A stretch of DNA of 64,000 bases, taken from Hydractinia symbiolongicarpus. Lineage: Eukaryota; Cnidaria; Hydrozoa; Anthoathecata; Hydractiniidae. Where the stretch lies: assembly GCF_029227915.1 (NCBI RefSeq), contig NC_079876.1, positions 29,299,828-29,363,827 on the forward strand, in the 5' to 3' direction. The notes beneath the pieces were generated by a model, which had not been told where the DNA came from, did no database searches, and worked only from the letters and a program-made list of their open reading frames with translations. The translations under genes were made by a program, and so were the position numbers. Position 1 is the stretch's first letter. Each line of letters starts with the position of its first letter. This document shows positions 1-64,000 of the stretch, one piece after another.

Positions 1-312
1 GCATTCTAAATCGTGCAAGAGCATTAACATCTGTCGACGTTGTTGATTCTTTAATAACTTTGCGCTTCAATAATTCAATAAGTTGACTGGAACAGCAAAA
101 AGGGATGGTAATATTTTGGATTTTGAGCTTGAAGTTTTGAGATATGGAAAGAATAATTGAGCATCTTGAAATAACGGCTGGTAGAATTATTAGGACTATT
201 CTATTTCGTCATGTTCCATACTTCGCCACAACCTGTCGTGGTAACAAATTTCCACGGTTAAAACTCTCCAAGCATCCTTCAATCATCTTATCACACAGGT
301 TAACCCAGCTAA

Positions 313-394
313 TAACAGAGGTGGGTTCGAACCCACGCAGGCAATCGTCCATTGGAACTTAAGTCCAACGCCTTAACAACTCGGCCACCCTGGT
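313..394 (-). pseudogene. tRNA-Leu(UAA) copy 1 (type a)
   Basis: 82 nt. One T-loop base is missing. There is a C2-T71 acceptor mismatch, G18 is changed to T, and the variable-arm stem is broken. Anticodon TAA is kept. Confidence 0.85.
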
Positions 395-764
395 TGAAAT
401 TTCAGGTTAATAAGGTTACTTGAACTTGGAAAAAGTCCTGGCAATGAACCTTAGCATTCTCCATCGTGCAAGAGCGTTAACACCTGTCGACGTTGTTATT
501 TTCTTCATAAATTACGCCTTGATAATTCAACAAATTGACTGAAACTGCAAAAAGAGATGGTAATATTTGGGATTTTGAGTTTGAAATTTTGAGAAATGGA
601 AGGAATAATTGCGCATCGTGAAATAACGGCTGGTAGAATTATTGGGGCTATTCTGATTCGCCATGTGCGATACTTTACCACAATGTGTCATGGAAACACA
701 TTTGCACGGTTAAAACTCTCCAAGCATCCTTCAAACACCTTATCACAGAGGTTAACCCAGCTAA

Positions 765-846
765 TAACAGAGGTGGGTTCGAACCCACGCGGGCAATCGT
801 CCATTGGAACTTAAGTCCAACGCCTTAACAACTCGGGAACCCTGGT
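765..846 (-). pseudogene. tRNA-Leu(UAA) copy 2 (type b)
   Basis: 82 nt. It has the same T-loop deletion and acceptor mismatch as copy 1, and in addition G10 is changed to C, which breaks the D stem and A box. Anticodon TAA. Confidence 0.85.
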
Positions 847-1217
847 TGAAATTTCAGGTTAACAAGGTTACTTGAACTTGGAAAAAGTACTGGCAATGCA
901 CCTTAGTACTATAAAGCGTGCAAGAGAAATAACAACTGTGGGCATCCTTATTTCTTTAATATTTTCCCGCCTTGATAATTCTATAAATTGACTGGAACTA
1001 CAAAAAAGGATGGTAATATTTGGGATTTTGAGTTTGAAATTTTGAAAAATGGAAGGAATAATTGCCCGTCGTGAAATAACGGCTGGTAGAATTATTGGGG
1101 CTATTCTATTTCGCCATGTGCGATACATTAGCACAACATGTCATGGTAATACATTTCCACTGCTAAAACTCTCCAGGCATCCTTCAATCATTTTATCACA
1201 AAGGTTAACTTTGCTTA

Positions 1218-1300
1218 TAACAGAGGTGGGGTTCGAACCCCCGCGGACACTCGTCCATTGGAACTTAAGTCCAACGCCTTAACCACTCGGCCGCCCCGGT
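1218..1300 (-). pseudogene. tRNA-Leu(UAA) copy 3 (type c)
   Basis: 83 nt with acceptor strand ACCGGGG, a C2-T71 mismatch and a T-stem mismatch (GGGGG opposite CCCAC). Anticodon TAA and T loop are intact. Confidence 0.8.
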
Positions 1301-1670
1301 TAGAATTGCAGGTTAATAAGGTTACTTGAAGTTGGAAAAAGTACTGCCAATGAACCTTAGTACTATAAAGCGTGCAAGAGCAATAACAACTGTGGACATC
1401 CTTAATTCTTTTATAATTTTTCGCTTTGATAATTCAACAAATTGACTGGAACTGCAAAAAGGGATGGTATTATTTGGGATTTTGAGTTTGACATTTTGAG
1501 ATATGGAAGGCATAAATGCGCATCGTGAAATGACGGCTAGTAGAATTATTGCAGCTATTCTATTTCGCCATGTGAGATAATTCAACACAACGTGTCATGT
1601 TAACGCATTTCCACGCAAAAACACTCCGAGCATCCTACAATCATCTTATCACACAGGTTAACCTAGCTAA

Positions 1671-1753
1671 TACCAGAGGTGGGGTTCGAACCCACGCGGC
1701 CAATTGTCCAGTGGAAGTTAAGTCCAACACCTTAACCACTCGGCCACCCTGGT
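1671..1753 (-). tRNA. tRNA-Leu-TAA: tRNA-Leu(UAA) copy 4 (type d), diverged
   Basis: 83 nt. Acceptor and T stems are paired. There is a T27-C43 mismatch, base 37 is C instead of G, and the D stem has a G-U pair. The variable arm is altered (GGCC). Confidence 0.7.
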
Positions 1754-2116
1754 TGAAATTTCGGGTTACCAAGCTTACATGTACTTGGAAAAAGTACTGG
1801 CAATGAACCTTAATATTCTAAATCGTGTAACAGCATTAGCATCTGTCGATCTTCTCAATAATTTGCCGTTTTGACAATTCAACAAATTGACTGGAACTGT
1901 AAAATGGTATGGTAATATTTGGGATTTTAAGTTTGAAATTTTAAGATATGGAAGGAATAATTGCGCATTGTGAAATAACGTCTGGTAGAATTCTTGCAGC
2001 AATTCTACTTCTCCAAGTTCGATACTTCGCCACAACGTGTCATGGCAAACACATTTCCACGTTTAAATTCTCCAAGCATCCTTCAATCATCTTATCACAA
2101 AGGTTAACCTAGCTAA

Positions 2117-2199
2117 TACCAGAGGTGGTGTTTGAACCCACGCGGACAATTGTCCAGTGGAACTTAAGTCCAACACCTTAACCACTCGGCCACCCTGGT
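2117..2199 (-). tRNA. tRNA-Leu-TAA: tRNA-Leu(UAA) copy 5 (type e), diverged
   Basis: 83 nt. T loop is TTCAAAC with a G53-A61 mismatch, and there is a T27-C43 mismatch. Anticodon loop is consensus. Confidence 0.65.
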
Positions 2200-2570
2200 T
2201 GAAATTTCGGGTTACCAAGGTTACATGGACTTGGAAAAAGTACTGGCAATAAACCTTAGTTTTCTAAATTATGTAAGAGCATTGACATCTGTCGACCTTC
2301 TTATTGCTTTAATAACTTGCCGCTTTGATAATTCATTAAATTGATTGAAACTGCAAAAAGTGATTTTAAAAATTGAGATTTTGAGTTTGAAATTTTGAGA
2401 TATGGAAGGCATTATTGCGTATCGTGAAGTAACGGCTGGTAGAATTATTGGGACTATTCTATTTTGCCCTGTGGGATAATTCAACACAAGGTGTCATGTT
2501 AACGCATTTCCACGGTTAAAACTCTGCAAGCATCATTTATTCATCTTATCACACAGGTTAACCCAGCTAA

Positions 2571-2653
2571 TACCAGAGGTGGGGTTCGAACCCACGCGGA
2601 CAATCGTCCATTGGAACTTAAGTCCAACGACTTAACCACTCGGCCACCCTGGT
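2571..2653 (-). tRNA. tRNA-Leu-TAA: tRNA-Leu(UAA) copy 6 (type f)
   Basis: 83 nt. The only change from consensus is one D-stem base (GGC to GTC), giving a single mismatch. Confidence 0.8.
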
Positions 2654-3023
2654 TGAAATTTCAGGCTACCAAGGTTACTTGAACTTGGAAAACGTACTGG
2701 CAATGAACCTTAGTATTCTATTTCGCGCAGGAGCATTACCATTTGACGACCTTGAGATTGTTCAATAATTTGCCGTTTCGATAACTCAACAAAATGAATG
2801 GAATTGCAAAATAGGATGGTAATATTTGGGACTTTGAGTTTGACATTTTGAGATATGGAAGGCATAAAAGCACATCGTGAAATAACGGCCAGTAGAATTA
2901 TTGCGGCCATTCTATTTCAACATGTGCGTTACTTCGCCCGAACGTGTCATGGCAAACACATTTCCACGTTGAAATTCCCCAAGCATCCTTCAATCATCTT
3001 ATCACACAGGTTTATCTAGCAAA

Positions 3024-3105
3024 TACCAGAGTTGGGGTTCGAACCCACGCGGGCAATTGTCATTGGAACTTAAGTCCATCGCCTTAACCACTCAGCCACC
3101 CTGGT
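3024..3105 (-). pseudogene. tRNA-Leu(UAA) copy 7 (type g)
   Basis: 82 nt. One variable-arm base is lost. There is one T-stem change, an A27-A43 mismatch and a D-stem T. Anticodon TAA. Confidence 0.8.
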
Positions 3106-3475
3106 TGGAGTTTCAGGTTAATAAGGTTACTTGAATTTGGAAAAAGTACGGGAAATGAACATTAGTATTCTAAATCGCCCTAGAGAATTACCATTTGACG
3201 ACCTTCAGATTTTTTAATAAGTTGCCATTTTAAAAACTCAACACAATGAATGGAGCTGCAAAAAGGGATGGTAATACTTGGGATTTTGTGTTTGAAATTT
3301 TGAGATATGGAAGGTATAACTGAGCATCGTGAAATAACGGCTTGTAGAATTATTGGGGCTACTCTATCTCGCCATGTGCGATACTTTACCCAAACATGCC
3401 ATGGTAATACATTTCCACTGCTTAAACTCTCCAAGAATCCTTCAAACATCTTATCACACAGGTTAACCTAACTAA

Positions 3476-3558
3476 TGCCAGAGGTGGGGTTCGAACTCAC
3501 GCGGACAATCGTCCATTGGAACTTAAGTCCAACGCCTAAACCACTCGGCCACCCTTGT
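3476..3558 (-). pseudogene. tRNA-Leu(UAA) copy 8 (type h)
   Basis: 83 nt. Mismatches A1-C72, A3-G70 and a T-stem A-C, plus a D-loop change. Anticodon loop is consensus. Confidence 0.8.
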
Positions 3559-3929
3559 TGAAATTTCAGGTTAATAAGGTTACTTGAACTTGGAAAAAGT
3601 ACTGGCAATAATCCTCAGCATTCTAAATCGTGCAAGAGCATTAACATCTGTCGACGTTGTTGATTCTTTAATAACTTTGCGCTTCAATAATTCAATAAGT
3701 TGACTGGAACAGCAAAAAGGGATGGTAATATTTTGGATTTTGAGCTTGAAGTTTTGAGATATGGAAAGAATAATTGAGCATCTTGAAATAACGGCTGGTA
3801 GAATTATTAGGACTATTCTATTTCGTCATGTTCCATACTTCGCCACAACCTGTCGTGGTAACAAATTTCCACGGTTAAAACTCTCCAAGCATCCTTCAAT
3901 CATCTTATCACACAGGTTAACCCAGCTAA

Positions 3930-4011
3930 TAACAGAGGTGGGTTCGAACCCACGCAGGCAATCGTCCATTGGAACTTAAGTCCAACGCCTTAACAACTCG
4001 GCCACCCTGGT
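3930..4011 (-). pseudogene. tRNA-Leu(UAA) copy 9 (type a)
   Basis: Identical in the tRNA to copy 1, 3,617 bp away. Includes the T-loop deletion. Confidence 0.85.
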
Positions 4012-4381
4012 TGAAATTTCAGGTTAATAAGGTTACTTGAACTTGGAAAAAGTCCTGGCAATGAACCTTAGCATTCTCCATCGTGCAAGAGCGTTAACAC
4101 CTGTCGACGTTGTTATTTTCTTCATAAATTACGCCTTGATAATTCAACAAATTGACTGAAACTGCAAAAAGAGATGGTAATATTTGGGATTTTGAGTTTG
4201 AAATTTTGAGAAATGGAAGGAATAATTGCGCATCGTGAAATAACGGCTGGTAGAATTATTGGGGCTATTCTGATTCGCCATGTGCGATACTTTACCACAA
4301 TGTGTCATGGAAACACATTTGCACGGTTAAAACTCTCCAAGCATCCTTCAAACACCTTATCACACAGGTTAACCCAGCTAA

Positions 4382-4463
4382 TAACAGAGGTGGGTTCGAA
4401 CTCACGCGGACAATCGTCCATTGGAATTTAAGACCAACGCCTTAACCACTCGGCCACCCTTGT
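4382..4463 (-). pseudogene. tRNA-Leu(UAA) copy 10 (b-like recombinant)
   Basis: 82 nt. Starts as type b (T-loop deletion) but ends like a type h acceptor (ACAAGGG). T31-T39 mismatch and A37. The following spacer is of another type, so this is a recombination joint. Confidence 0.8.
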
Positions 4464-4834
4464 TGAAATTTCAGGTTAATAAGGTTAATTGAACTTGAAA
4501 AAAGTACTGGCAATGAACCTTAGCATTCTCAACCGTGCAAGAGCATTCACATCTGTTGACTTTCTTTTTTCTTTAATAATTTTCCGCTTCGATAATTCAA
4601 CAAATTGACTGGATCTGCGAAAAGGGATGGTAATCCTTGAGATTTTAAACTTGAAATTTGGTGACATGGAAGGAAAAATTGCTCATCGTGAAATAACGGC
4701 TTGTTGAATTACTGCAGCTATTTTAATTCTCCATGTTCGATATTTCACCACAACGTGTCATGGCAACACATTTCCACGGTTAAAACTCTGCAAGCATCAT
4801 TTATTCATCTTAACACACAGGTTAACCCAGCTAA

Positions 4835-4917
4835 TACCAGAGGTGGGGTTCGAACCCACGCGGACAATCGTCCATTGGAACTTAAGTCCAACGACTTAAC
4901 CACTCGGCCACCCTGGT
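4835..4917 (-). tRNA. tRNA-Leu-TAA: tRNA-Leu(UAA) copy 11 (type f)
   Basis: Same tRNA as copy 6: a single D-stem mismatch. Confidence 0.8.
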
Positions 4918-5287
4918 TGAAATTTCAGGCTACCAAGGTTACTTGAACTTGGAAAACGTACTGGCAATGAACCTTAGTATTCTATTTCGCGCAGGAGCAT
5001 TACCATTTGACGACCTTGAGATTGTTCAATAATTTGCCGTTTCGATAACTCAACAAAATGAATGGAATTGCAAAATAGGATGGTAATATTTGGGACATTG
5101 AGTTTGACATTTTGAGATATGGAAGGCATAAATGCACATCGTGAAATAACGGCCAGTAGAATTATTGCGGCCATTCTATTTCAACATTTGCGTTACTTCG
5201 CCCGAACATGTCATGGCAAACACATTTCCACGTTGAAATTCCCCATGCATCCTTCAATCATCTTATCACACAGGTTTATCTAGCAAA

Positions 5288-5369
5288 TACCAGAGTTGGG
5301 GTTCGAACCCACGCGGGCAATTGTCATTGGAACTTAAGTCCATCGCCTTAACCACTCAGCCACCCTGGT
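5288..5369 (-). pseudogene. tRNA-Leu(UAA) copy 12 (type g)
   Basis: 82 nt, same changes as copy 7. Confidence 0.8.
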
Positions 5370-5739
5370 TGGAGTTTCAGGTTAATAAGGTTACTTGAAT
5401 TTGGAAAAAGTACGGGAAATGAACATTAGTATTCTAAATCGCCCTAGAGAATTACCATTTGACGACCTTCAGATTTTTTAATAAGTTGCCATTTTAAAAA
5501 CTCAACACAATGAATGGAGCTGCAAAAAGGGATGGTAATACTTGGGATTTTGTGTTTGAAATTTTGAGATATGGAAGGTATAACTGAGCATCGTGAAATA
5601 ACGGCTTGCAGAATTATTGGGGCTACTCTATCTCGCCATGTGCGATACTTTACCAAAACATGCCATGGTAATACATTTCCACTGCTTAAACTCTCCAAGA
5701 ATCCTTCAAACATCTTATCACACAGGTTAACCTAACTAA

Positions 5740-5822
5740 TGCCAGAGGTGGGGTTCGAACTCACGCGGACAATCGTCCATTGGAACTTAAGTCCAACGCC
5801 TAAACCACTCGGCCACCCTTGT
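5740..5822 (-). pseudogene. tRNA-Leu(UAA) copy 13 (type h)
   Basis: Same changes as copy 8. Confidence 0.8.
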
Positions 5823-6193
5823 TGAAATTTCCGGTTAATAAGGTTACTTGAACTTGGAAAAAGTACTGGCAATGCACCTTAGTACTATAAAGCGTGCAAG
5901 AGAAATAACAACTGTGGGCATCCTTATTTCTTTAATATTTTCCCGCCTTGATAATTCTATAAATTGACTGGAACTACAAAAAAGGATGGTAATATTTGGG
6001 ATTTTGAGTTTGAAATTTTGAAAAATGGAAGGAATAATTGCCCGTCGTGAAATAACGGCTGGTAGAATTATTGGGGCTATTCTATTTCGCCATGTGCGAT
6101 ACATTAGCACAACATGTCATGGTAATACATTTCCACTGCTAAAACTCTCCAGGCATCCTTCAATCATTTTATCACAAAGGTTAACTTTGCTTA

Positions 6194-6276
6194 TAACAGA
6201 GGTGGGGTTCGAACCCCCGCGGACACTCGTCCATTGGAACTTAAGTCCAACGCCTTAACCACTCGGCCGCCCCGGT
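6194..6276 (-). pseudogene. tRNA-Leu(UAA) copy 14 (type c)
   Basis: Same changes as copy 3. Confidence 0.8.
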
Positions 6277-6646
6277 TAGAATTGCAGATTAAAAAGGTTA
6301 CTTGAACTTGGAAAAAGTACTGCCAATGAACCTTAGTACTATAAAGCGTGCAAGAGCAATAACAACTGTGGACATCCTTAATTCTTTTATAATTTGCCGC
6401 TTTGATAATTCAACAAATTGACTGGAACTGCAAAAAGGGATGGTATTATTTGGGATTTTGAGTTTGACATTTTGATATATGGAAGGCATAAATGCGCATC
6501 GTGAAATGACGGCTAGTAGAATTATTGCAGCTATTCTATTTCGCCATGTGAGATAATTCAACACAACGTGTCATGTTAACGCATTTCCACGCAAAAACAC
6601 TCCGAGCATCCTACAATCATCTTATCACACAGGTTAACCTAGCTAA

Positions 6647-6729
6647 TACCAGAGGTGGGGTTCGAACCCACGCGGACAATTGTCCAGTGGAAGTTAAGTC
6701 CAACACCTTAACCACTCGGCCACCCTGGT
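6647..6729 (-). tRNA. tRNA-Leu-TAA: tRNA-Leu(UAA) copy 15 (type d), diverged
   Basis: As copy 4 but with the variable-arm stem GGAC/GTCC restored. Confidence 0.7.
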
Positions 6730-7092
6730 TGAAATTTCGGGTTACCAAGCTTACATGTACTTGGAAAAAGTACTGGCAATGAACCTTAATATTCTAAATC
6801 GTGTAACAGCATTAGCATCTGTCGATCTTCTCAATAATTTGCCGTTTTGACAATTCAACAAATTGACTGGAACTGTAAAATGGTATGGTAATATTTGGGA
6901 TTTTAAGTTTGAAATTTTAAGATATGGAAAGAATAATTGCGCATTGTGAAATAACGTCTGGTAGAATTCTTGCAGCAATTCTACTTCTCCAAGTTCGATA
7001 CTTCGCCACAACGTGTCATGGCAAACACATTTCCACGTTTAAATTCTCCAAGCATCCTTCAATCATCTTATCACAAAGGTTAACCTAGCTAA

Positions 7093-7175
7093 TACCAGAG
7101 GTGGTGTTTGAACCCACGCGGACAATTGTCCAGTGGAACTTAAGTCCAACACCTTAACCACTCGGCCACCCTGGT
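7093..7175 (-). tRNA. tRNA-Leu-TAA: tRNA-Leu(UAA) copy 16 (type e), diverged
   Basis: Same as copy 5. Confidence 0.65.
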
Positions 7176-7546
7176 TGAAATTTCGGGTTACCAAGGTTAC
7201 ATGGACTTGGAAAAAGTACTGGCAATAAACCTTAGTTTTCTAAATTATGTAAGAGCATTGACATCTGTCGACCTTCTTATTGCTTTAATAACTTGCCGCT
7301 TTGATAATTCATTAAATTGATTGAAACTGCAAAAAGTGATTTTAAAAATTGAGATTTTGAGTTTGAAATTTTGAGATATGGAAGGCATTATTGCGTATCG
7401 TGAAGTAACGGCTGGTAGAATTATTGGGACTATTCTATTTTGCCCTGTGGGATAATTCAACACAAGGTGTCATGTTAACGCATTTCCACGGTTAAAACTC
7501 TGCAAGCATCATTTATTCATCTTATCACACAGGTTAACCCAGCTAA

Positions 7547-7629
7547 TACCAGAGGTGGGGTTCGAACCCACGCGGACAATCGTCCATTGGAACTTAAGTC
7601 CAACGACTTAACCACTCGGCCACCCTGGT
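7547..7629 (-). tRNA. tRNA-Leu-TAA: tRNA-Leu(UAA) copy 17 (type f)
   Basis: Same as copy 6: one D-stem mismatch. Confidence 0.8.
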
Positions 7630-7999
7630 TGAAATTTCAGGCTACCAAGGTTACTTGAACTTGGAAAACGTACTGGCAATGAACCTTAGTATTCTATTTC
7701 GCGCAGGAGCATTACCATTTGACGACCTTGAGATTGTTCAATAATTTGCCGTTTCGATAACTCAACAAAATGAATGGAATTGCAAAATAGGATGGTAATA
7801 TTTGGGACTTTGAGTTTGACATTTTGAGATATGGAAGGCATAAATGCACATCGTGAAATAACGGCCAGTAGAATTATTGCGGCCATTCTATTTCAACATG
7901 TGCGTTACTTCGCCCGAACGTGTCATGGCAAACACATTTCCACGTTGAAATTCCCCAAGCATCCTTCAATCATCTTATCACACAGGTTTATCTAGCAAA

Positions 8000-8081
8000 T
8001 ACCAGAGTTGGGGTTCGAACCCACGCGGGCAATTGTCATTGGAACTTAAGTCCATCGCCTTAACCACTCAGCCACCCTGGT
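8000..8081 (-). pseudogene. tRNA-Leu(UAA) copy 18 (type g)
   Basis: 82 nt, as copy 7. Confidence 0.8.
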
Positions 8082-8451
8082 TGGAGTTTCAGGTTAATAA
8101 GGTTACTTGAATTTGGAAAAAGTACGGGAAATGAACATTAGTATTCTAAATCGCCCTAGAGAATTACCATTTGACGACCTTCAGATTTTTTAATAAGTTG
8201 CCATTTTAAAAACTCAACACAATGAATGGAGCTGCAAAAAGGGATGGTAATACTTGGGATTTTGTGTTTGAAATTTTGAGATATGGAAGGTATAACTGAG
8301 CATCGTGAAATAACGGCTTGTAGAATTATTGGGGCTACTCTATCTCGCCATGTGCGATACTTTACCAAAACATGCCATGGTAATACATTTCCACTGCTTA
8401 AACTCTCCAAGAATCCTTCAAACATCTTATCACACAGGTTAACCTAACTAA

Positions 8452-8534
8452 TGCCAGAGGTGGGGTTCGAACTCACGCGGACAATCGTCCATTGGAACTT
8501 AAGTCCAACGCCTTAACCACTCGGCCACCCTTGT
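8452..8534 (-). pseudogene. tRNA-Leu(UAA) copy 19 (type h)
   Basis: As copy 8 but the D loop is consensus. Confidence 0.8.
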
Positions 8535-8905
8535 TGAAATTTCAGGTTAATAAGGTTACTTGAACTTGGAAAAAGTACTGGCAATAATCCTCAGCATTCT
8601 AAATCGTGCAAGAGCATTAACATCTGTCGACGTTGTTGATTCTTTAATAACTTTGCGCTTCAATAATTCAATAAGTTGACTGGAACAGCAAAAAGGGATG
8701 GTAATATTTTGGATTTTGAGCTTGAAGTTTTGAGATATGGAAAGAATAATTGAGCATCTTGAAATAACGGCTGGTAGAATTATTAGGACTATTCTATTTC
8801 GTCATGTTCCATACTTCGCCACAACCTGTCGTGGTAACAAATTTCCACGGTTAAAACTCTCCAAGCATCCTTCAATCATCTTATCACACAGGTTAACCCA
8901 GCTAA

Positions 8906-8987
8906 TAACAGAGGTGGGTTCGAACCCACGCAGGCAATCGTCCATTGGAACTTAAGTCCAACGCCTTAACAACTCGGCCACCCTGGT
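8906..8987 (-). pseudogene. tRNA-Leu(UAA) copy 20 (type a)
   Basis: 82 nt, as copy 1. Confidence 0.85.
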
Positions 8988-9357
8988 TGAAATTTCAGGT
9001 TAATAAGGTTACTTGAACTTGGAAAAAGTCCTGGCAATGAACCTTAGCATTCTCCATCGTGCAAGAGCGTTAACACCTGTCGACGTTGTTATTTTCTTCA
9101 TAAATTACGCCTTGATAATTCAACAAATTGACTGAAACTGCAAAAAGAGATGGTAATATTTGGGATTTTGAGTTTGAAATTTTGAGAAATGGAAGGAATA
9201 ATTGCGCATCGTGAAATAACGGCTGGTAGAATTATTGGGGCTATTCTGATTCGCCATGTGCGATACTTTACCACAATGTGTCATGGAAACACATTTGCAC
9301 GGTTAAAACTCTCCAAGCATCCTTCAAACACCTTATCACAGAGGTTAACCCAGCTAA

Positions 9358-9439
9358 TAACAGAGGTGGGTTCGAACCCATGCAGGCAATCGTCCATTGG
9401 AACTTAAGTCCAACGCCTTAACAACTCGGGAACCCTGGT
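9358..9439 (-). pseudogene. tRNA-Leu(UAA) copy 21 (type b)
   Basis: 82 nt, as copy 2 plus an A in place of G at the first T-stem base and an altered variable arm. Confidence 0.85.
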
Positions 9440-9810
9440 TGAAATTTCAGGTTAATAAGGTTACTTGAACTTGGAAAAAGTACTGGCAATGCACCTTAGT
9501 ACTATAAAGCGTGCAAGAGAAATAACAACTGTGGGCATCCTTATTTCTTTAAAATTTTCCCGCCTTGATAATTCTATAAATTGACTGGAACTACAAAAAA
9601 GGATGGTAATATTTGGGATTTTGAGTTTGAAATTTTGAAAAATGGAAGGAATAATTGCCCGTCGTGAAATAACGGCTGGTAGAATTATTGGGGCTATTCT
9701 ATTTCGCCATGTGCGATACATTAGCACAACATGTCATGGTAATACATTTCCACTGCTAAAACTCTCCAGGCATCCTTCAATCATTTTATCACAAAGGTTA
9801 ACTTTGCTTA

Positions 9811-9893
9811 TAACAGAGGTGGGGTTCGAACCCCCGCGGACACTCGTCCATTGGAACTTAAGTCCAACGCCTTAACCACTCGGCCGCCCCGGT
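9811..9893 (-). pseudogene. tRNA-Leu(UAA) copy 22 (type c)
   Basis: As copy 3. Confidence 0.8.
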
Positions 9894-10263
9894 TAGAATT
9901 GCAGGTTAATAAGGTTACTTGAACTTGGAAAAAGTACTGCCAATGAACCTTAGTACTATAAAGCGTGCAAGAGCAATAACAACTGTGGACATCCTTAATT
10001 CTTTTATAATTTGCCGCTTTGATAATTCAACAAATTGACTGGAACTGCAAAAAGGGATGGTATTATTTGGGATTTTGAGTTTGACATTTTGAGATATGGA
10101 AGGCATAAATGCGCATCGTGAAATGACGGCTAGTAGAATTATTGCAGCTATTCTATTTCGCCATGTGAGATAATTCAACACAACGTGTCATGTTAACGCA
10201 TTTCCACGCAAAAACACTCCGAGCATCCTACAATCATCTTATCACACAGGTTAACCTAGCTAA

Positions 10264-10346
10264 TACCAGAGGTGGGGTTCGAACCCACGCGGACAATTGT
10301 CCAGTGGAAGTTAAGTCCAACACCTTAACCACTCGGCCACCCTGGT
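10264..10346 (-). tRNA. tRNA-Leu-TAA: tRNA-Leu(UAA) copy 23 (type d), diverged
   Basis: As copy 15. Confidence 0.7.
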
Positions 10347-10709
10347 TGAAATTTCGGGTTACCAAGCTTACATGTACTTGGAAAAAGTACTGGCAATGAA
10401 CCTTAATATTCTAAATCGTGTAACAGCATTAGCATCTGTCGATCTTCTCAATAATTTGCCGTTTTGACAATTCAACAAATTGACTGGAACTGTAAAATGG
10501 TATGGTAATATTTGGGATTTTAAGTTTGAAATTTTAAGATATGGAAGGAATAATTGCGCATTGTGAAATAACGTCTGGTAGAATTCTTGCAGCAATTCTA
10601 CTTCTCCAAGTTCGATACTTCGCCACAACGTGTCATGGCAAACACATTTCCACGTTTAAATTCTCCAAGCATCCTTCAATCATCTTATCACAAAGGTTAA
10701 CCTAGCTAA

Positions 10710-53560: not shown

Positions 53561-53643
53561 TACCAGAGGTGGGGTTTGAACCCTCTCGGACAATCCTCCA
53601 TTGGAACTTAAGTCCAACGGCTTAACCACTCGGCCACCCTGGT
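53561..53643 (-). tRNA. tRNA-Leu-TAA: tRNA-Leu(UAA) copy 118, diverged
   Basis: As copy 100. Confidence 0.65.
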
Positions 53644-54013
53644 TGAATATTTAAGTTAATAAGGTTACTTGAACTTGGAAAAAGTACTGGCAATGAACCT
53701 TAGTATTTTAAATCGCGCAAGAGCATTACCATTTGACGACCTTCAGACGTTTCAATAACTTCCGTTTTGATAACTCAACAAAATGAATGGAACTGCAAGA
53801 TGGGATGCTAATATCTGGGATTTTGAGTTTGAAAGTTTGAGACATGGAAGGAATAATTGCGCATTGTGAAATAACGGCTGGCACAACTATTGCAGCTGTT
53901 CTACCTCTCCAAGTTCGATACTTCGCCACAACGTGTCATAGCAAACACATTTCCACGATTAAAACTCTACAAGCATCCCTCAATCTTCTTATCACACAGG
54001 TTAGCCTAGCTAA

Positions 54014-54095
54014 TACCAGAGGTGGGGTTCAAACCCACGCGGACAATTATCCATTGGAACTTAAGTTCAACGCCTAACCACTCGACCACCCTGGC
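54014..54095 (-). pseudogene. tRNA-Leu(UAA) copy 119
   Basis: As copy 110. Confidence 0.82.
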
Positions 54096-54466
54096 TGAAA
54101 TTTCAAGTTACCAAGGTTACTTGAACTTGTAAAAAGTACTAGCAATGAGCCTTAATAATCTAAATCGTGTAAGAGAATTAACGTCTGTCGATCTTCTTAT
54201 TTCTTTAATAATTCGCCGTTTTGATAATTCAACAAACTGACTGGAACTGCAAAAAAGTGTGGTAATATTTGGGATTTTGAGTTTGAAAATTTGAGATATG
54301 GAAGGAATAATTGCGCATTGCGAAATAACGGCTGGTACAACTATTGCAGCTATTCTGCCTCTCCAAGTTCGATACTTCGCCACAACGAGTCATGGCAAAC
54401 ACATTTCCACGTTTAAATTTTTCAAGCATCCTTCAATCATCTTATCAAGAACGTTAACCTAGCTAA

Positions 54467-54549
54467 TACCAGAGGGGGGGTTCGAACCCACGCGGACAAA
54501 CGTCCATTGGAGCTTAAGTCCAACGCCTTAACCACTCGGCCACCCTGGT
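54467..54549 (-). tRNA. tRNA-Leu-TAA: tRNA-Leu(UAA) copy 120, 7-G tract
   Basis: As copy 114. Confidence 0.7.
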
Positions 54550-54968
54550 TGAAATTTCAGGTTAATAAGGTTACTTGAGTTTGGATAGGGTACAGGAAAT
54601 GAACCTTAGTATTCTAAATCGCTCAAGAACATACCATTTGACAACCTTCAGATTTTTCAATAATTTGCCCTTTTGATAACTCAACAAAATGAATGAAACT
54701 GCAAAATGGGATGGTAATATTTGGGATTTTGAGTTTGAAAGTTTCAGATATGGAAGGTATTATTGCGTATCGTGAAGGAACGGCTGGTAGAATTATTGGG
54801 GCTATTCTATTTTGTCCTGTGGGATAATTCAACAAAACGTATAATGTTAACGCATTTTCACGATTAAAACTCTCCAAGCATCCCTCAATCTTCTTATCAC
54901 CACCATTTCCACGTTTAAATTCTCCAAGCATCCCTCAATTTTCTTATCAAAAACGTTAACCTAGCTAA

Positions 54969-55051
54969 TAACAGAGATGACGTTCGAACCCACTCGGAGA
55001 AACGTTCATTGGAGCTTAAGTCCAACGCCTTAATCACTCGGCCACCCTTGT
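54969..55051 (-). pseudogene. tRNA-Leu(UAA) copy 121, diverged
   Basis: As copy 115, at +2,769 bp. Confidence 0.78.
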
Positions 55052-55422
55052 TGAATATTCAGGTTAATTAGGTTACTTGAATTTGAAAAAAGTACTGGCA
55101 ATGAATCTTATTATTTTAAATCGCGCAAGAGCATTACCATTTGACGACCTTCAGACTTTTCAATAATTTGCCGTTTTGATAACTCAACAAATTGACCGGA
55201 ACTGCAAAAAAGTATGGTAATATCTGTGATTTTGAGTTTGAAAGTTTGAGACATGGAAGGAATAATTGCGCATTATGAAATAACGGCTGGAACAACTGTT
55301 GCAGCTGTTCTACTTCTCCAAGTTCGATACTTCGCCACAACGTGTCATAGCAAACACATTTCCACGATTAAAACTCTACAAGCATCCCTCAATCTTCTTA
55401 TCACACAGGTTAGCCTAGCTAA

Positions 55423-55505
55423 TACCAGAGGTGGGGTTCGAACCCACGCGGACAATCGTCCATTGGAACTTAAGTCCAACGCCTTAACCACTCGGCCACC
55501 CTGGT
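55423..55505 (-). tRNA. tRNA-Leu-TAA: tRNA-Leu(UAA) copy 122, exact consensus
   Basis: Same as copy 116, at +2,769 bp. Confidence 0.92.
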
Positions 55506-55874
55506 TGAACATTCAGGTTAATAAGGTTACTTGAATTTGGAAAGGGTACCGGAAATGAACCTTAGTATTCTAAATCGCCCAAGAGCATTACCATTTGACG
55601 AACTTCAGATTTTTTAATAATTTTCCATTTTGATAGCTCAACAAAATGAATGGAGCTGCAAAAAAGGATGGTAATATTTGGGATTTGGAGTATGAATGTT
55701 TGAGATATGGAAGGCATTATTGCGCATCGTGAAGTAACGGCTGGTAGAACTATTGGGGCTATTCTATTTCGCCATGTGGGATAATTCAACACAACGTGTC
55801 ATGTTAACGCATTTCCACGGCAAAACCTTCCAAGCATCCTTCAATCATCTTATCAAAAACGTTAACCTAGCTAA

Positions 55875-55956
55875 TAACAGAGATGGGGTTCGAACCCACT
55901 CGGAGAAACGTTCATTGGAGCTTAAGTCCAACGCGTTAACCACTCGCCATCCAGGT
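55875..55956 (-). pseudogene. tRNA-Leu(UAA) copy 123
   Basis: 82 nt. One D-arm base missing, acceptor ACCTGGA opposite CTCTGTT, variable stem broken. T5 about 15 nt downstream. Confidence 0.82.
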
Positions 55957-56327
55957 TGAATATTCAGGTTAATAAGGTTACTTGATCTTGGAAAAAGTAC
56001 TGGGAATGAACCTTAGTATTTTAAATCGCGCAAGAGCATTAACATCTGCCGATCTTCTTATTTCTTTAATAATTTTCCGTTTTGATAACTCAACAGATTG
56101 ACTGGAACTGCAAACAAGTATGGTAATATCTGTGATTTTGAGTTTGAAAGTTTGAGACATGGAAAGAATAATTGCGCATTGTGAAATAACGGCTGGTACA
56201 ACTATTGCAGCTGTTCTATTTCTCCAGGTTCGATACTTCGCCAGAACGTGTCATGGCAAACACATTTCCACGTTTAAATTCTCCATGCATCCTTCAATCA
56301 TCTTATCACCAGGATAAACCTAGCTAA

Positions 56328-56410
56328 TACCAGAGGTGGGGTTCGAACCCACGCGGACAATCGTCCATTGGAACTTAAGTCCAACGCCTTAACCACTCGG
56401 CCACCCTGGT
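56328..56410 (-). tRNA. tRNA-Leu-TAA: tRNA-Leu(UAA) copy 124, exact consensus
   Basis: Every base is consensus; 3' flank as copy 117. Confidence 0.92.
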
Positions 56411-56781
56411 TGAAATTTCAGGTTAATAAGGTTACTTGAACTTGGAAAAAGTACTGGCAATGAACCTTAATATTTTAAATCGCGCAAGAGCATTACCATT
56501 TGACGACCTTCAGACTTTTCAATAATTTGCCGTTTTGATAACTCAACAAAATGAATGGAACTGCAAGATGGGATGCTAATATCTGGGATTTTGAGTTTGA
56601 AAGTTTGAGACATGGAAGGAATAATTGCGCATTGTGAAATAACGGCTGGCACAACTATTGCAGCTGTTCTACCTCTCCAAGTTCGATACTTCGCCACAAC
56701 GTGTCATAGCAAACACATTTCCACGATTAAAACTCTACAAGCATCCCTCAATCTTCTTATCACACACGTTAGCCTAGCTAA

Positions 56782-56863
56782 TACCAGAGGTGGGGTTCAA
56801 ACCCACGCGGACAATTATCCATTGGAACTTAAGTTCAACGCCTAACCACTCGACCACCCTGGC
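56782..56863 (-). pseudogene. tRNA-Leu(UAA) copy 125
   Basis: As copy 110. Confidence 0.82.
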
Positions 56864-57234
56864 TGAAATTTCAAGTTACCAAGGTTACTTGAACTTGTAA
56901 AATGTACTAGCAATGAGCCTTAATAATCTAAATCGTGTAAGAGATTTAACGTCTGTCGATCTTCTTATTTCTTTAATAATTCGCCGTTTTGATAATTCAA
57001 CAAACTGACTGGAACTGCAAAAAAGTGTGGTAATATTTGGGATTTTGAGTTTGAAAATTTGAGATATGGAAGGAATAATTGCGCATTGCGAAATAACGGC
57101 TGGTACAACTAATGCAGCTATTCTGCCTCTCCAAGTTCGATACTTCGCCACAACGAGTCATGGCAAACACATTTCCACGTTTAAATTTTTCAAGCATCCT
57201 TCAATCATCTTATCGAGAACGTTAACCTAGCTAA

Positions 57235-57317
57235 TACCAGAGGGGGGGTTCGAACCCACTCGGACAAACGTCCATTGGAGCTTAAGTCCAACGCCTTAAA
57301 TACTCGGCCACCCTGGT
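57235..57317 (-). pseudogene. tRNA-Leu(UAA) copy 126, 7-G tract
   Basis: As copy 114 plus two D-loop changes that remove one of the conserved G pair. Confidence 0.72.
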
Positions 57318-57736
57318 TGAAATTTCAGGTTAATAAGGTTACTTGAGTTTGGATAGGGTACAGGAAATGAACCTTAGTATTCTAAATCGCTCAAGAACAT
57401 ACCATTTGACAACCTTCAGATTTTTCAATAATTTGCCTTTTTGATAACTCAACAAAATGAATGAAACTGCAAAATGGGATGGTGATATTTGGGATTTTGA
57501 GTTTGAAAGTTTCAGATATGGAAGGTATTATTGCGTATCGTGAAGTAACGGCTGGTAGAATTATTGGGGCTATTCTATTTTGTCCTGTGGGATAATTCAA
57601 CACAACGTATAATGTTAACGCATTTTCACGATTAAAACTATCCAAGCATCCCTCAATCTTCTTATCACCACCATTTCCACGTTTAAATTCTCCAAGCATC
57701 CCTCAATTTTCTTATCAAAAACGTTAACCTAGCTAA

Positions 57737-57819
57737 TAACAGAGATGACGTTCGAACCCACTCGGAGAAACGTTCATTGGAGCTTAAGTCCAACGCCTTA
57801 AGCACTCGGCCACCCTTGT
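57737..57819 (-). pseudogene. tRNA-Leu(UAA) copy 127, diverged
   Basis: As copy 115 with a different D-loop base. Confidence 0.78.
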
Positions 57820-58190
57820 GGAATATTCAGGTTAATTAGATTACTTGAATTTGAAAAAAGTACTGGCAATGAATCTTATTATTTTAAATCGCCCAAGAGC
57901 ATTACCATTTGACGACCTTCAGACTTTTCAATAATTTGCCGTTTTGATAACTCAACAAATTGACCGGAACTGCAAAAAAGTATGGTAATATCTGTGATTT
58001 TGAGTTTGAAAGTTTGAGACATGGAAGGAATAATTGCGCATTATGAAATAACGGCTGGAACAACTGTTGCAGCTGTTCTACTTCTCCAAGTTCGATACTT
58101 CGCCACAACGTGTCATAGCAAACATATTTCCACGATTAAAACTCTACAAGCATCCCTCAATCTTCTTATCACACAGGTTAGCCTAGCTAA

Positions 58191-58273
58191 TACCAGAGGT
58201 GGGGTTCGAACCCACGCGGACAATCGTCCATTGGAACTTAAGTCCAACGCCTTAACCACTCGGCCACCCTGGT
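58191..58273 (-). tRNA. tRNA-Leu-TAA: tRNA-Leu(UAA) copy 128, exact consensus
   Basis: Same as copy 122, at +2,768 bp. Confidence 0.92.
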
Positions 58274-58642
58274 TGAACATTCAGGTTAATAAGGTTACTT
58301 GAATTTGGAAAGGGTACCGGAAATGAACCTTAGTATTCTAAATCGCCCAAGAGCATTACCATTTGACGAACTTCAGATTTTTTAATAATTTTCCATTTTG
58401 ATAGCTCAACAAAATGAATGGAGCTGCAAAAAAGGATGGTAATATTTGGGATTTGGAGTATGAATGTTTGAGATATGGAAGGCATTATTGCGCATCGTGA
58501 AGTAACGGCTGGTAGAACTATTGGGGCTATTCTATTTCGCCATGTGGGATAATTCAACACAACGTGTCATGTTAACGCATTTCCACGGCAAAACCTTCCA
58601 AGCATCCTTCAATCATCTTATCAAAAACGTTAACCTAGCTAA

Positions 58643-58724
58643 TAACAGAGATGGGGTTCGAACCCACTCGGAGAAACGTTCATTGGAGCTTAAGTCCAAC
58701 GCGTTAACCACTCGCCATCCAGGT
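58643..58724 (-). pseudogene. tRNA-Leu(UAA) copy 129
   Basis: As copy 123, at +2,768 bp. Confidence 0.82.
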
Positions 58725-59095
58725 TGAATATTCAGGTTAATAAGGTTACTTGATCTTGGAAAAAGTACTGGGAATGAACCTTAGTATTTTAAATCGCGCA
58801 AGAGCATTAACATCTGCCGATCTTCTTATTTCTTTAATAATTTTCCGTTTTGATAACTCAACAGATTGACTGGAACTGCAAACAAGTATGGTAATATCTG
58901 TGATTTTGAGTTTGAAAGTTTGAGACATGGAAAGAATAATTGCGCATTGTGAAATAACGGCTGGTACAACTATTGCAGCTGTTCTATTTCTCCAGGTTCG
59001 ATACTTCGCCAGAACGTGTCATGGCAAACACATTTCCACGTTTAAATTCTCCATGCATCCTTCAATCATCTTATCACCAGGATAAACCTAGCTAA

Positions 59096-59178
59096 TACCA
59101 GAGGTGGGGTTCGAACCCACGCGGACAATCGTCCATTGGAACTTAAGTCCAACGCCTTAACCACTCGGCCACCCTGGT
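59096..59178 (-). tRNA. tRNA-Leu-TAA: tRNA-Leu(UAA) copy 130, exact consensus
   Basis: Same as copy 124, at +2,768 bp. Confidence 0.92.
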
Positions 59179-59549
59179 TGAAATATCAGGTTAATAAGGT
59201 TACTTGAACTTGGAAAAAGTACTGGCAATGAACCTTAATATTTTAAATCGCGCAAGAGCATTACCATTTGACGACCTTCAGACTTTTCAATAATTTGCCG
59301 TTTTGATAACTCAACAAAATGAATGGAACTGCAAGATGGGATGCTAATATCTGGGATTTTGAGTTTGAAAGTTTGAGACATGGAAGGAATAATTGCGCAT
59401 TGTGAAATAACGGCTGGCACAACTATTGCAGCTGTTCTACCTCTCCAAGTTCGATACTTCGCCACAACGTGTCATAGCAAACACATTTCCACGATTAAAA
59501 CTCTACAAGCATCCCTCAATCTTCTTATCACACACGTTAGCCTAGCTAA

Positions 59550-59631
59550 TACCAGAGGTGGGGTTCAAACCCACGCAGACAATTATCCATTGGAACTTAA
59601 GTTCAACGCCTAACCACTCGACCACCCTGGC
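59550..59631 (-). pseudogene. tRNA-Leu(UAA) copy 131
   Basis: As copy 110 with one further variable-arm change. Confidence 0.82.
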
Positions 59632-60002
59632 TGAAATTTCAAGTTACCAAGGTTACTTGAACTTGTAAAATGTACTAGCAATGAGCCTTAATAATCTAAA
59701 TCGTGTAAGAGATTTAACGTCTGTCGATCTTCTTATTTCTTTAATAATTCGCCGTTTTGATAATTCAACAAACTGACTGGAACTGCAAAAAAGTGTGGTA
59801 ATATTTGGGATTTTGAGTTTGAAAATTTGAGATATGGAAGGAATAATTGCGCATTGCGAAATAACGGCTGGTACAACTAATGCAGCTATTCTGCCTCTCC
59901 AAGTTCGATACTTCGCCACAACGAGTCATGGCAAACACATTTCCACGTTTAAATTTTTCAAGCATCCTTCAATCATCTTATCGAGAACGTTAACCTAGCT
60001 AA

Positions 60003-60085
60003 TACCAGAGGGGGGGTTCGAACCCACTCGGACAAACGTCCATTGGAGCTTAAGTCCAACGCCTTAACCACTCGGCCACCCTGGT
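60003..60085 (-). tRNA. tRNA-Leu-TAA: tRNA-Leu(UAA) copy 132, 7-G tract
   Basis: As copy 114 apart from one base at the end of the variable arm. Confidence 0.7.
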
Positions 60086-60504
60086 TGAAATTTCAGGTTA
60101 ATAAGGTTACTTGAGTTTGGATAGGGTACAGGAAATGAACCTTAGTATTCTAAATCGCTCAAGAACATACCATTTGACAACCTTCAGATTTTTCAATAAT
60201 TTGCCTTTTTGATAACTCAACAAAATGAATGAAACTGCAAAATGGGATGGTGATATTTGGGATTTTGAGTTTGAAAGTTTCAGATATGGAAGGTATTATT
60301 GCGTATCGTGAAGTAACGGCTGGTAGAATTATTGGGGCTATTCTATTTTGTCCTGTGGGATAATTCAACACAACGTATAATGTTAACGCATTTTCACGAT
60401 TAAAACTATCCAAGCATCCCTCAATCTTCTTATCACCACCATTTCCACGTTTAAATTCTCCAAGCATCCCTCAATTTTCTTATCAAAAACGTTAACCTAG
60501 CTAA

Positions 60505-60587
60505 TAACAGAGATGACGTTCGAACCCACTCGGAGAAACGTTCATTGGAGCTTAAGTCCAACGCCTTAAGCACTCGGCCACCCTTGT
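60505..60587 (-). pseudogene. tRNA-Leu(UAA) copy 133, diverged
   Basis: As copy 127, at +2,768 bp. Confidence 0.78.
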
Positions 60588-60958
60588 GGAATATTCAGGT
60601 TAATTAGATTACTTGAATTTGAAAAAAGTACTGGCAATGAATCTTATTATTTTAAATCGCCCAAGAGCATTACCATTTGACGACCTTCAGACTTTTCAAT
60701 AATTTGCCGATTTGATAACTCAACAGATTGACTGGAACTGCAAACAAGTATGGTAATATCTGTGATTTTGAGTTTGAAAGTTTGAGACATGGAAGGAATA
60801 ATTGCGCATTGTGAAATAACGGCTGGTACAACTATTGCAGCTGTTCTACCTCTCCAAGTTCGATACTTCGCCACAACGTGTCATGGCAAACACATTTCCA
60901 CGATTAAAACTCTACAAGCATCCCTCAATCATCTTATCACACAGGTTAGCCTAGCTAG

Positions 60959-61041
60959 TACCAGAGGTGGGGTTCGAACCCACGCGGACAATAGTCCATT
61001 GGAACTTAAGTCCAACGCCTTAACCACTCGCCCACCCTTGT
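60959..61041 (-). tRNA. tRNA-Leu-TAA: tRNA-Leu(UAA) copy 134, diverged
   Basis: A3-G70 and G11-G24 mismatches; variable loop changed. T and anticodon arms are consensus. Confidence 0.68.
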
Positions 61042-61410
61042 TGAAAATTCAGGTTAATAAGGTTACTTGAACTTGGAAAGGGTACGGGAAATGAACCTTA
61101 GTATTCTAAATCGCCCAAGAGCATTACCATTTGAGGACCTTCAGATTTTCAATAATTTGCTCTTTTGATAACTCAATAAAATAAATGGAACTTCAAAATA
61201 GGATGGTAATATTAGGGATTTTGAGTTTGAAAGTTTCAGATATGGAAGGCATTATTGCGTATAGTGAAGTAACGGCTGGTAGAATTACTGGGGTTATTCT
61301 ATTTTGCCCTGTGGGATAATTCAACACAACGTATCATGTTAACACATTTCCACGGTTAAAACTCTCCAATCATCCCTCAATCTTCTTATCACACAGGTTA
61401 GCCTAGCTAA

Positions 61411-61493
61411 TACCAGAGGCGGGGTTCAAACCCATGCGGACAATAGTCCATTGGAACTTAAGTCCAACGCCTTAACCACTCAGCCACCCTAGT
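61411..61493 (-). pseudogene. tRNA-Leu(UAA) copy 135, T arm damaged
   Basis: T loop TTTGAAC loses C56; A49-C65 mismatch; D stem and acceptor rely on wobble pairs. Confidence 0.72.
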
Positions 61494-61863
61494 TGAAACT
61501 TCAAGTTAAAAAGGTTACTTGAACTTGGAAAAAATACTGGCAATGAATCTTATTATTTTAAATCGCCCAAGAGCATTACCATTTGACGACCTTCAGACTT
61601 TTCAATAATTTGCCGTTTTGATAACTCAACAGATTGACTGGAACTGCAAAAAAGTATGGTAATATCTGTGATTTTGAGTTTGAAAGTTTGAGACATGGAA
61701 GAAATAATTGCGCATTGTGAAATAACGGCTGGTAGAATTACTGGGGCTATTCTATTTTGCCCTGTGGGATAATTCAACACAACGAATCATGTTAACACAT
61801 TTCCACGGTTAAAACTCTCCAAGCATCCCTCAATCTTCTTATCACACAGGTTAGCCTAGCTAA

Positions 61864-61946
61864 TACCAGAGGTGGTGTTCGAACCCATGCGGACAATAGT
61901 CCATTGGAACTTAAGTCCAACGCCTTAACCACTCGGCCACCCTGGT
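61864..61946 (-). tRNA. tRNA-Leu-TAA: tRNA-Leu(UAA) copy 136, diverged
   Basis: Two T-stem mismatches; the rest is near consensus. Confidence 0.68.
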
Positions 61947-62317
61947 TGAAATTTCAAGTTAATAAGGTTACTTGAACTTGGAAAAAGTACTGGCAATGAA
62001 TCTTATTATTTTAAATCGCCCAAGAGCATTACCATTTGACGACCTTCAGACTTTTCAATAATTTGCCGTTTTGATAATTTAACAGATTGACTGGAACTGC
62101 AAACAAGTATGGTAATATCTGTGATTTTGAGTTTGAAAGTTTGACACATGGAAGGAATAATTGCGCATTGTGAAATAACGGCTGGTACAACTATTGCAGC
62201 TGTTCTACCTCTCCAAAGTCGATACTTCGCCACAACGTGTCCTGGCAAACACATTTCCACGATTAAAACTCTACAAGCATCCCTCAATCTTCTTATCACA
62301 CAGGTTAGCCTAGCTAG

Positions 62318-62400
62318 TACCAGAGGTGGGGTTCGAACCCACGCGGACAAACGTCCATTGGAACTTAAGTCCAACGCCTTAACCACTCGGCGAACCTGGT
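62318..62400 (-). tRNA. tRNA-Leu-TAA: tRNA-Leu(UAA) copy 137, diverged
   Basis: T7-C66 mismatch and G9 changed to C (an A-box base). Variable stem GGAC/GTCC intact with loop GTTT. Confidence 0.7.
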
Positions 62401-62770
62401 TGAAAATTCAGGTTAATAAGGTTACTTGAACTTGGAAAGGGTACGGGAAATGAACCTTAGTATTCTAAATCGCCCAAGAGCATTACCATTTGACGACCTT
62501 CAGATTTTTCACTAATTTGCCCTTTTGATAACTCAACAAAATGAATGGAACTGCAAAATGGGATGGTAATATTTGGGATTTTGTGTTTGAAAGTTTCAGA
62601 TATGGAAGGCATTATTGCGTATAGTGAAGTAACGGCTGGTAGAATTACTGGGGTTATTCTATTTTGCCCTGTGGGATAATTCAACACAACGTATCATGTT
62701 AACACATTTCCACGGTTAAATTTCTCCAATCATCCCTCAATCTTCTTATCACACAGGTTAGCCTAGCTAG

Positions 62771-62853
62771 TACCAGAGGTGGGGTTCGAACCCACGCGGA
62801 CAAACGTCCATTGGAACTTAAGTCCAACGCCTTAACCACTCGGCCATCCTGGT
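62771..62853 (-). tRNA. tRNA-Leu-TAA: tRNA-Leu(UAA) copy 138
   Basis: One acceptor mismatch (A7-C66); all else pairs. Confidence 0.8.
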
Positions 62854-63217
62854 TGAAAATTCAGGTTAATAAGGTTACTTGAACTTGGAAAGGGTACAGG
62901 AAATGAACCTTAGTATTCTAAATCGCCCAAGAGCATTACCATTTGACGACCTTCAGACTTTTCAATAATTTGCCATTTTGATAACTCAACAGATTGACTG
63001 GAACTGCAAAAAAGATATCTGTGATTTTGAGTTTGAAAGTTTGAGACATGGAAGGAATAATTGCGCATTGTGAAATAACGGCTGGTACAACTATTGCAGC
63101 TGTTCTACCTCTCCAAAGTCGATACTTCGCCACAACGTGTCATGGCAAACACATTTCCACGATTAAAACTCTACAAGCATCCCTCAATCTTCTTATCACA
63201 CAGGTTAGCCTAGCTAG

Positions 63218-63300
63218 TATCAGAGGTGGGGTTCGAACCCACGCGGACAAACGTCCATTGGAACTTAAGTCCAACGCCTTAACCACTCGGCCACCCTGGT
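63218..63300 (-). tRNA. tRNA-Leu-TAA: tRNA-Leu(UAA) copy 139
   Basis: One acceptor mismatch (C2-A71); all else pairs. Confidence 0.8.
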
Positions 63301-63670
63301 TGAAAATTCAGGTTAATAAGGTTACTTGAACTTGGAAAGGGTACGGGAAATGAACCTTAGTATTCTAAATCGCCCAAGAGCATTACCATTTGACGACCTT
63401 CAGATTTTTCACTAATTTGCCCTTTTGATAACTCAACAAAATGAATGGAACTGCAAAATGGGATGGTAATATTTGGGATTTTGAGTTTGAAAGTTTCAGA
63501 TATGGAAGGCATTATTGCGTATAGTGAAGTAACGGCTGGTAGAATTACTGGGGTTATTCTATTTTGCCCTGTGGGATAATTCAACACAACGTATCATGTT
63601 AACACATTTCCACGGTTAAAACTCTCCAATCATCCCTCAACCTTCTTATCACACAGGTTAGCCTAGCTAG

Positions 63671-63753
63671 TACCAGAGGTGGGGTTCGAACCCACGCGGA
63701 CAAACGTCCATTGGAACTTAAGTCCAACGCCTTAACCACTCGGCCACCCTGGT
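63671..63753 (-). tRNA. tRNA-Leu-TAA: tRNA-Leu(UAA) copy 140, intact cloverleaf
   Basis: Differs from consensus only by one variable-loop base. All stems and promoter boxes are intact. Confidence 0.9.
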
Positions 63754-64000
63754 TGAAAATTCAGGTTAATAAGGTTACTTGAATTTGGAAAGGGTACGGG
63801 AAATGAACCTTAGTATTCTAAATCGCCCAAGAGCATTACCATTTGACGACCTTCAGACTTTTCAATAATTTGCCATTTTGATAACTCAACAGATTGATTG
63901 GAACTGCAAAAAAGATATCTGTGATTTTGAGTTTGAAAGTTTGAGACATGGAAGGAATAATTGCGCATTGTGAAATAACGGCTGGTACTACTATTGCAGC

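Follow-up and report, generated by a model that had tools for sequence, protein, structure and literature searches.

A 64-kb tandem array of tRNA-Leu(UAA) units in Hydractinia symbiolongicarpus that has probably become a satellite

What does a genome hold when it carries about 140 copies of one tRNA gene in a single row? This question is raised by a stretch of 64,000 nucleotides from Hydractinia symbiolongicarpus (contig NC_079876.1 of assembly GCF_029227915.1, positions 29,299,828 to 29,363,827), which was analysed as a whole and is called the window below. A sequence-only reading had described it as an array of about 140 tRNA-Leu(UAA) genes with a period of about 453 bp, all on one strand, with higher-order structure and running past both edges, and had held that the sequence does not decide between a tRNA gene reservoir, a source of tRNA fragments, a field of TFIIIC-binding sites and a selfish satellite. 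The description stands in nearly every point, and the sequence does in part decide: a reservoir is disfavoured, and the array is probably a satellite that grew out of a single tRNA-Leu gene unit through unequal exchange and conversion and is now largely non-functional. A satellite is favoured because the units form higher-order repeats, are mosaic, and have been amplified with a damaged tRNA as readily as the others.

The whole window is a single tandem array (1..64000, minus strand), made up of head-to-tail units of about 453 bp, each consisting of a minus-strand tRNA-Leu(UAA) of 83 bp and a spacer of about 370 bp. With one 83-bp copy as query, blastn found 140 copies in the window, all of them in minus-strand orientation and none in the opposite one, and a self-comparison detected no inverted copies within the window at E 1e-5. 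ARAGORN called 130 tRNAs (126 Leu(UAA), 2 Leu(CAA), one with anticodon UUA labelled 'tRNA-Stop', and one Gly(UCC)). The tRNA identity, for which a covariance-model search had been proposed as a check, was confirmed by cmscan: 127 of the 140 copies reached the Rfam gathering score of RF00005, all on the minus strand, with scores from 62.4 down to 29.6 bits (E 3.9e-11 to 0.041) and 60.4 bits for an exact-consensus copy. By alignment, the anticodon is TAA in 136/140 copies, CAA in 2, TTA in 1 and gapped in 1. The spacing between copies is 452-454 bp in 111 of the 139 intervals, and odd intervals measure 118 bp (n=3), 305, 329, 338 (n=2), 467 and 502-503 bp (n=6). Since the first unit match starts at base 3 and the last ends at base 64000, the array continues past both window edges. 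The window thus holds a long head-to-tail array of a fixed-length unit, as in a satellite, and a covariance-model tRNA in nearly every unit in one orientation, as in a tandem tRNA array. The tRNA consensus has a long variable arm, the anticodon UAA and no encoded CCA, in keeping with nuclear genes for leucine tRNAs. When 52600-55000 was scanned against Rfam with lax settings, tRNA alone and no other family was returned, and exact spacer patterns gave 0 matches in a viral and a genome contig collection, neither of which is eukaryotic and from which the window's own genome is possibly absent.

A tRNA sequence is indeed present in each unit, but calling the copies genes goes too far for most of them. 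After dropping 3 copies with more than 6 gaps, 137 of the 140 were usable, and these were subjected to a strict check that required all 24 stem pairs, no indel, the checked conserved bases and the anticodon UAA. Exact consensus was seen in 8 of the 137, all 24 stem pairs without an indel in 17, and 16 passed the strict check, representing 7 distinct sequences; as a class the copies are therefore not intact genes. The exact-consensus copies are the following.

52654..52736, minus strand: tRNA copy with the exact consensus (one of 8), 60.4 bits
40531, 48524, 53108, 55423, 56328, 58191 and 59096, minus strand: the other exact-consensus copies, from the alignment to the consensus

The way in which the stems have changed is informative as well. 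Among 90 distinct sequences, the pair was kept after 66 of 276 single-sided stem changes (23.9%), where 24.0% was expected from the substitution types seen in the spacer. When each site and base was counted once, the pair was kept in 18 of 88 single-sided changes, and one of the 4 double stem changes in these 90 sequences formed a pair. Broken pairs numbered 213 against a shuffle mean of 206, slightly above rather than below. Pairs are thus kept at the chance rate, indicating that recent change disregards the cloverleaf.

A different picture emerges from variants that are shared by many units. For unit statistics we used the 124 of 139 intervals with a length of 440-470 bp; these standard units have a mean identity of 84.8% and form 64 clusters when grouped at 96.5% identity, each of which was reduced to one representative. 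Across these 64 representatives the tRNA has a diversity of 0.102 and the spacer one of 0.159. Taking common alleles as old and rare alleles as young, we counted 2 common alleles (at least 8 of 64 units) in the 83 tRNA sites and 83 in the 370 spacer sites. Common variants are therefore about nine-fold scarcer in the tRNA, so that about 89% of them are missing at this cut, and every 83-bp window clear of the tRNA holds at least 14. The contrast persisted across 15 settings (p 4e-6 to 0.043) and was also present for A/T and G/C sites taken separately. Rarer alleles are not scarcer in the tRNA (1.51 per site, against 1.31 in the spacer). Since old variants are scarce in the tRNA and young ones are not, the tRNA was probably protected in the past, or overwritten from intact genes, and single copies now drift.

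The units are organised in higher-order repeats, in line with the earlier description, and these are local and of several lengths, comprising blocks of 3 to 15 units, as listed here.

1..17799, minus strand: block whose repeats recur after 11, 8 and 10 units with mostly 98-100% identity; none of the 39 usable copies strictly intact
18177..28800, minus strand: block with a 7-unit repeat at 19538-25427 (99-100%) and rearranged units after it; strictly intact copies 4 of 25 usable ones
25427, 26450 and 27925, minus strand: 118-bp truncated units (n=3)
28801..36691, minus strand: mostly monomeric stretch, best unit matches mostly 90-95%; 1 of 18 usable copies strictly intact
38083..49431, minus strand: block with 9- and 15-unit lags (40-48.5 kb), most pairs 96-100%
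49432..64000, minus strand: block in which the lag is first 3 units (49.4-52 kb) and then 6 units (52-61 kb, mostly 97-100%)
52084, 54853, 57621 and 60389, minus strand: 50-bp spacer duplications, from a tandem-repeat finder

An exception in the monomeric stretch is the unit pair 34685/35468, at 97%. Strictly intact copies number 4 of 23 usable ones in the block 38083..49431, two of them exact consensus, and 7 of 32 in the block 49432..64000, six of them exact consensus, with the border between these blocks set at 49300 for the counts. The 50-bp duplication sits in 4 of the six intervals of 502-503 bp. Human alpha satellite likewise combines diverged monomers, local higher-order repeats, monomeric stretches and mobile-element insertions, and the array resembles it in all four; unlike alpha satellite, it has a tRNA gene that can be recognised in its unit.

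Common variants show a linkage of 0.26 when they lie within 20 bp of each other, and of about 0.05 at distances above 120 bp; permutations gave 0.016. Such a decay over about 100 bp is the pattern expected from short exchange tracts, and shows the units as mosaics of old variants; together with the higher-order repeats it marks the array as homogenised by unequal exchange or conversion. Amplification has paid no visible attention to the state of the tRNA: amplified units carry 4.19 tRNA changes and single units 3.94 (p 0.65), with 1.90 and 1.91 broken pairs, respectively (p 0.96). Amplification driven by an intact tRNA is consequently unsupported, as the tRNAs of amplified units are no better than those of single units.

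A course of events that would account for these results starts from a founding unit made of a nuclear tRNA-Leu(UAA) gene and about 370 bp of flanking sequence. This unit was repeated head to tail, short exchange tracts produced mosaics of old variants, and in a later step blocks of 3 to 15 units were duplicated as higher-order repeats. Earlier in the life of the unit the tRNA was presumably under selection, or intact genes repeatedly overwrote it, and this constraint would since have lapsed for individual copies. At present, the array would change by unequal exchange and gene conversion, largely regardless of tRNA function, and most copies would supply no tRNA, while the intact minority may still be transcribed.

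Several observations weigh against a satellite that is largely non-functional. At 14 near-universal tRNA positions, rare variants number 1.64 per site, compared with 3.04 per base-matched tRNA site (p 0.014) and 2.64 per base-matched spacer site (p 0.04). The UAA anticodon is retained in 136 of the 140 copies, 127 copies still clear the Rfam cut-off, and the promoter motifs are kept in 112/140 copies for the B box and in 105/140 for the A box. Clusters with a strictly intact tRNA are also somewhat more frequent among the amplified (6/28) than among the single ones (4/36), at p 0.31. Some present constraint on the tRNA may therefore remain.

A further reading is that of an array in transition, whose tRNA was strongly constrained as far back as the oldest variants record and was then released. 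We hold this for less likely than not. As part of it, and just as tentatively, the array could be seen as a layered record, within one locus, of a multicopy tRNA locus becoming a satellite. In a stronger form, only the Pol III / TFIIIC site may still be kept, and the array may now exist to serve this site.

The array is unlikely to be a tRNA-Leu(UAA) reservoir, whether working or switched during development, in which selection would act on the total dose so that single copies are free to decay and damaged variants cannot take over. Such a reservoir would explain why common variants are scarce in the tRNA and why exact-consensus copies persist in two blocks, and it has a precedent in the Arabidopsis SYY cluster, which is silent in most tissues and active in root tips (PMC12308677). 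However, damaged units were amplified as readily as others, and none of the 39 usable copies in the first 17.8 kb is strictly intact. Terminators point in the same direction: a run of four T residues (T4) lies within 25 nt past the tRNA 3' end in 13/140 copies and within 70 nt in 84/140, while 29/140 lack one over the first 200 nt. A near T4 is rare among the 16 strict copies too, the first one being at +50 (n=10), at +178 (n=2) or beyond 200 nt (n=4). Since Pol III termination without T4 exists, the rarity of a near T4 is not conclusive against a reservoir. The small number of intact copies, recent stem changes that ignore pairing and the rare near T4 together make the reservoir the disfavoured option.

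At about 50 nt past the 3' end of the tRNA, the spacer has several alleles, of which two are very common, one with TTTT and the other with no more than TTT; the TTTT is a possible Pol III terminator.

The scarcity of old variants could also arise without selection on the array, if the tRNA part was at times overwritten by conversion from intact dispersed tRNA-Leu(UAA) genes. Overwriting would erase exactly the old variants that are missing, and linkage between sites on either side of the tRNA was below that of equally distant spacer sites at 110-140 bp (0.032 versus 0.060) and at 140-180 bp (0.024 versus 0.041), in values that come from non-independent pairs and were compared without a significance test. 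This comparison used 108 rotated units with 62 representatives, in which the tRNA has 3 common sites. At 83-110 bp there was no difference (0.061 across the tRNA, from 10 pairs, versus 0.059 in the spacer), which speaks against overwriting, and as an explanation in its own right we consider it doubtful.

The idea of a field of TFIIIC or Pol III sites, acting on chromosome structure as a boundary or replication barrier, with only the promoter boxes mattering, has some weak support but appears improbable. Both the A- and the B-box motif were matched in 85/140 copies, diversity is lowest in the B box (0.065) and the anticodon stem (0.073), and the human 1q23.3 tRNA repeat has been proposed to act as a boundary via CTCF (PMC4041453). 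Against this, conservation of the boxes does not significantly exceed that of the other parts of the tRNA (A and B boxes 0.084, remaining tRNA 0.109, p = 0.12), and the non-box part of the tRNA is also more conserved than the spacer (p 0.0036). Finally, an assembly artefact, in which the assembler multiplied repeat copies, would fit the units that are 100% identical, but is very improbable given the variety of units and structure, with 64 unit clusters, linkage between variants that decays over about 100 bp, a longest exact repeat of 1578 bp, only 3 exact repeats of at least 1000 bp, several periods nested in one another and junctions with the retrotransposons that occur once each.

The satellite favoured here can be set beside published arrays. 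The sequence-only reading called the array unusual, which is fair, with the reservation that smaller single-isoacceptor tandem tRNA clusters are in print (PMC10701932, PMC12652284, PMC11700998). Among the closest is the Arabidopsis tRNA-Cys cluster on chromosome 5, with four to six units of about 420 bp and possible Helitron involvement; it shares the single isoacceptor, the single orientation and a similar unit length, and is likened to our array also in its variable copy number and its drifting, mostly silent copies, whereas our array has at least 140 units and the excerpt of that report describes no higher-order repeats (PMC10701932). The SYY tRNA-Ser/Tyr cluster is likewise a large tandem tRNA array, heterochromatic, with an intact core and flanks richer in pseudogenes, but it has two isoacceptors per unit and a known root-tip expression, and 13/54 of its clustered tDNA-Tyr are tRNA-like, compared with the majority of copies here (PMC12308677). 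Human 1q23.3 is also a tandem tRNA-gene repeat of changing copy number in an animal, with, unlike ours, a GC-rich unit of 7.3 kb that carries five tRNA genes for four amino acids, 9-43 units and CTCF sites (PMC4041453). Entamoeba arrays consist of tandem tRNA-bearing units homogenised by concerted evolution, with short tandem repeats between the genes, but there 25 different units hold almost all tRNA genes and constitute the tRNA supply (PMC2652664). Nematostella and teleosts have similarly long same-strand tRNA runs, of fifty and more genes, in which, unlike here, gene pairs in Nematostella and zebrafish are mostly of mixed isoacceptors (PMC2888827). Tandem tRNA arrays are also in print for Xenopus (PMC11500080), Ceratodon-type ('Cpu') clusters comprise 26, 18 and 14 tRNA genes (PMC12652284), and a mention of the retrotransposon Dewa of a tRNA-Leu spacer suggests a tRNA-Leu repeat in zebrafish (PMC3706591). 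The longest sized single-isoacceptor run in the searched literature is one of 28 tRNA-Ile genes in maize (PMC11700998), the larger Nematostella and fish clusters being given without an isoacceptor split (PMC2888827). Among the open-licence matches listed, which leave subscription papers mostly uncovered, none described a tRNA satellite of a single isoacceptor that has higher-order repeats. Tandem tRNA arrays are thus already known; what is new here is size, a single isoacceptor and higher-order structure together.

Since tRNA gene counts are often read as supply, a scanner that reports 130 genes in 64 kb, few of them structurally sound, calls for caution. Pair-keeping and the comparison of old with young variants are simple tests for any tRNA array, and at this locus one can trace how a satellite grows out of a gene.

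The array is broken by two retrotransposon pieces, at about 17800-18175 and at 36692-38082.

17800..18175, plus strand: insert, right border approximate
36692..38082, minus strand: piece of a non-LTR (long terminal repeat) retrotransposon with a reverse transcriptase domain, RVT_1 (E 2.7e-23)

In the former, 17804-18090 contains 95 stop-free codons that by eye resemble the end of a non-LTR reverse transcriptase. For the latter, the stop-free part 37200-38000 was used in the RVT_1 search, and the best identity to reverse-transcriptase relatives was 63% among the matches listed (120 listed, with 7931 of 7993 candidates at E <= 0.001). Its motifs are reminiscent of cnidarian elements, an impression that was given no weight.

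Three copies have a deviant anticodon according to both ARAGORN and the alignment.

20444..20526, minus strand: copy with anticodon CAA (Leu)
23615..23697, minus strand: copy with anticodon CAA (Leu), the 7-unit-repeat partner of 20444..20526
38668..38750, minus strand: copy with anticodon UUA, 6 changes and 4 broken pairs

The UUA copy would decode the stop codon UAA, were its RNA made and charged. The tRNA-Gly(UCC) that ARAGORN called at 32875-32949 aligns as one of the Leu(UAA) copies, in which 8 bases are changed and 5 pairs broken. Rare transitions in the tRNA are about 2.3 times as frequent at CpG as at other C/G sites (3.33 versus 1.46 copies per site), with no such excess in the spacer (1.45 versus 1.70); the excess, which concerns 12 sites only, could point to methylation of the tRNA part.

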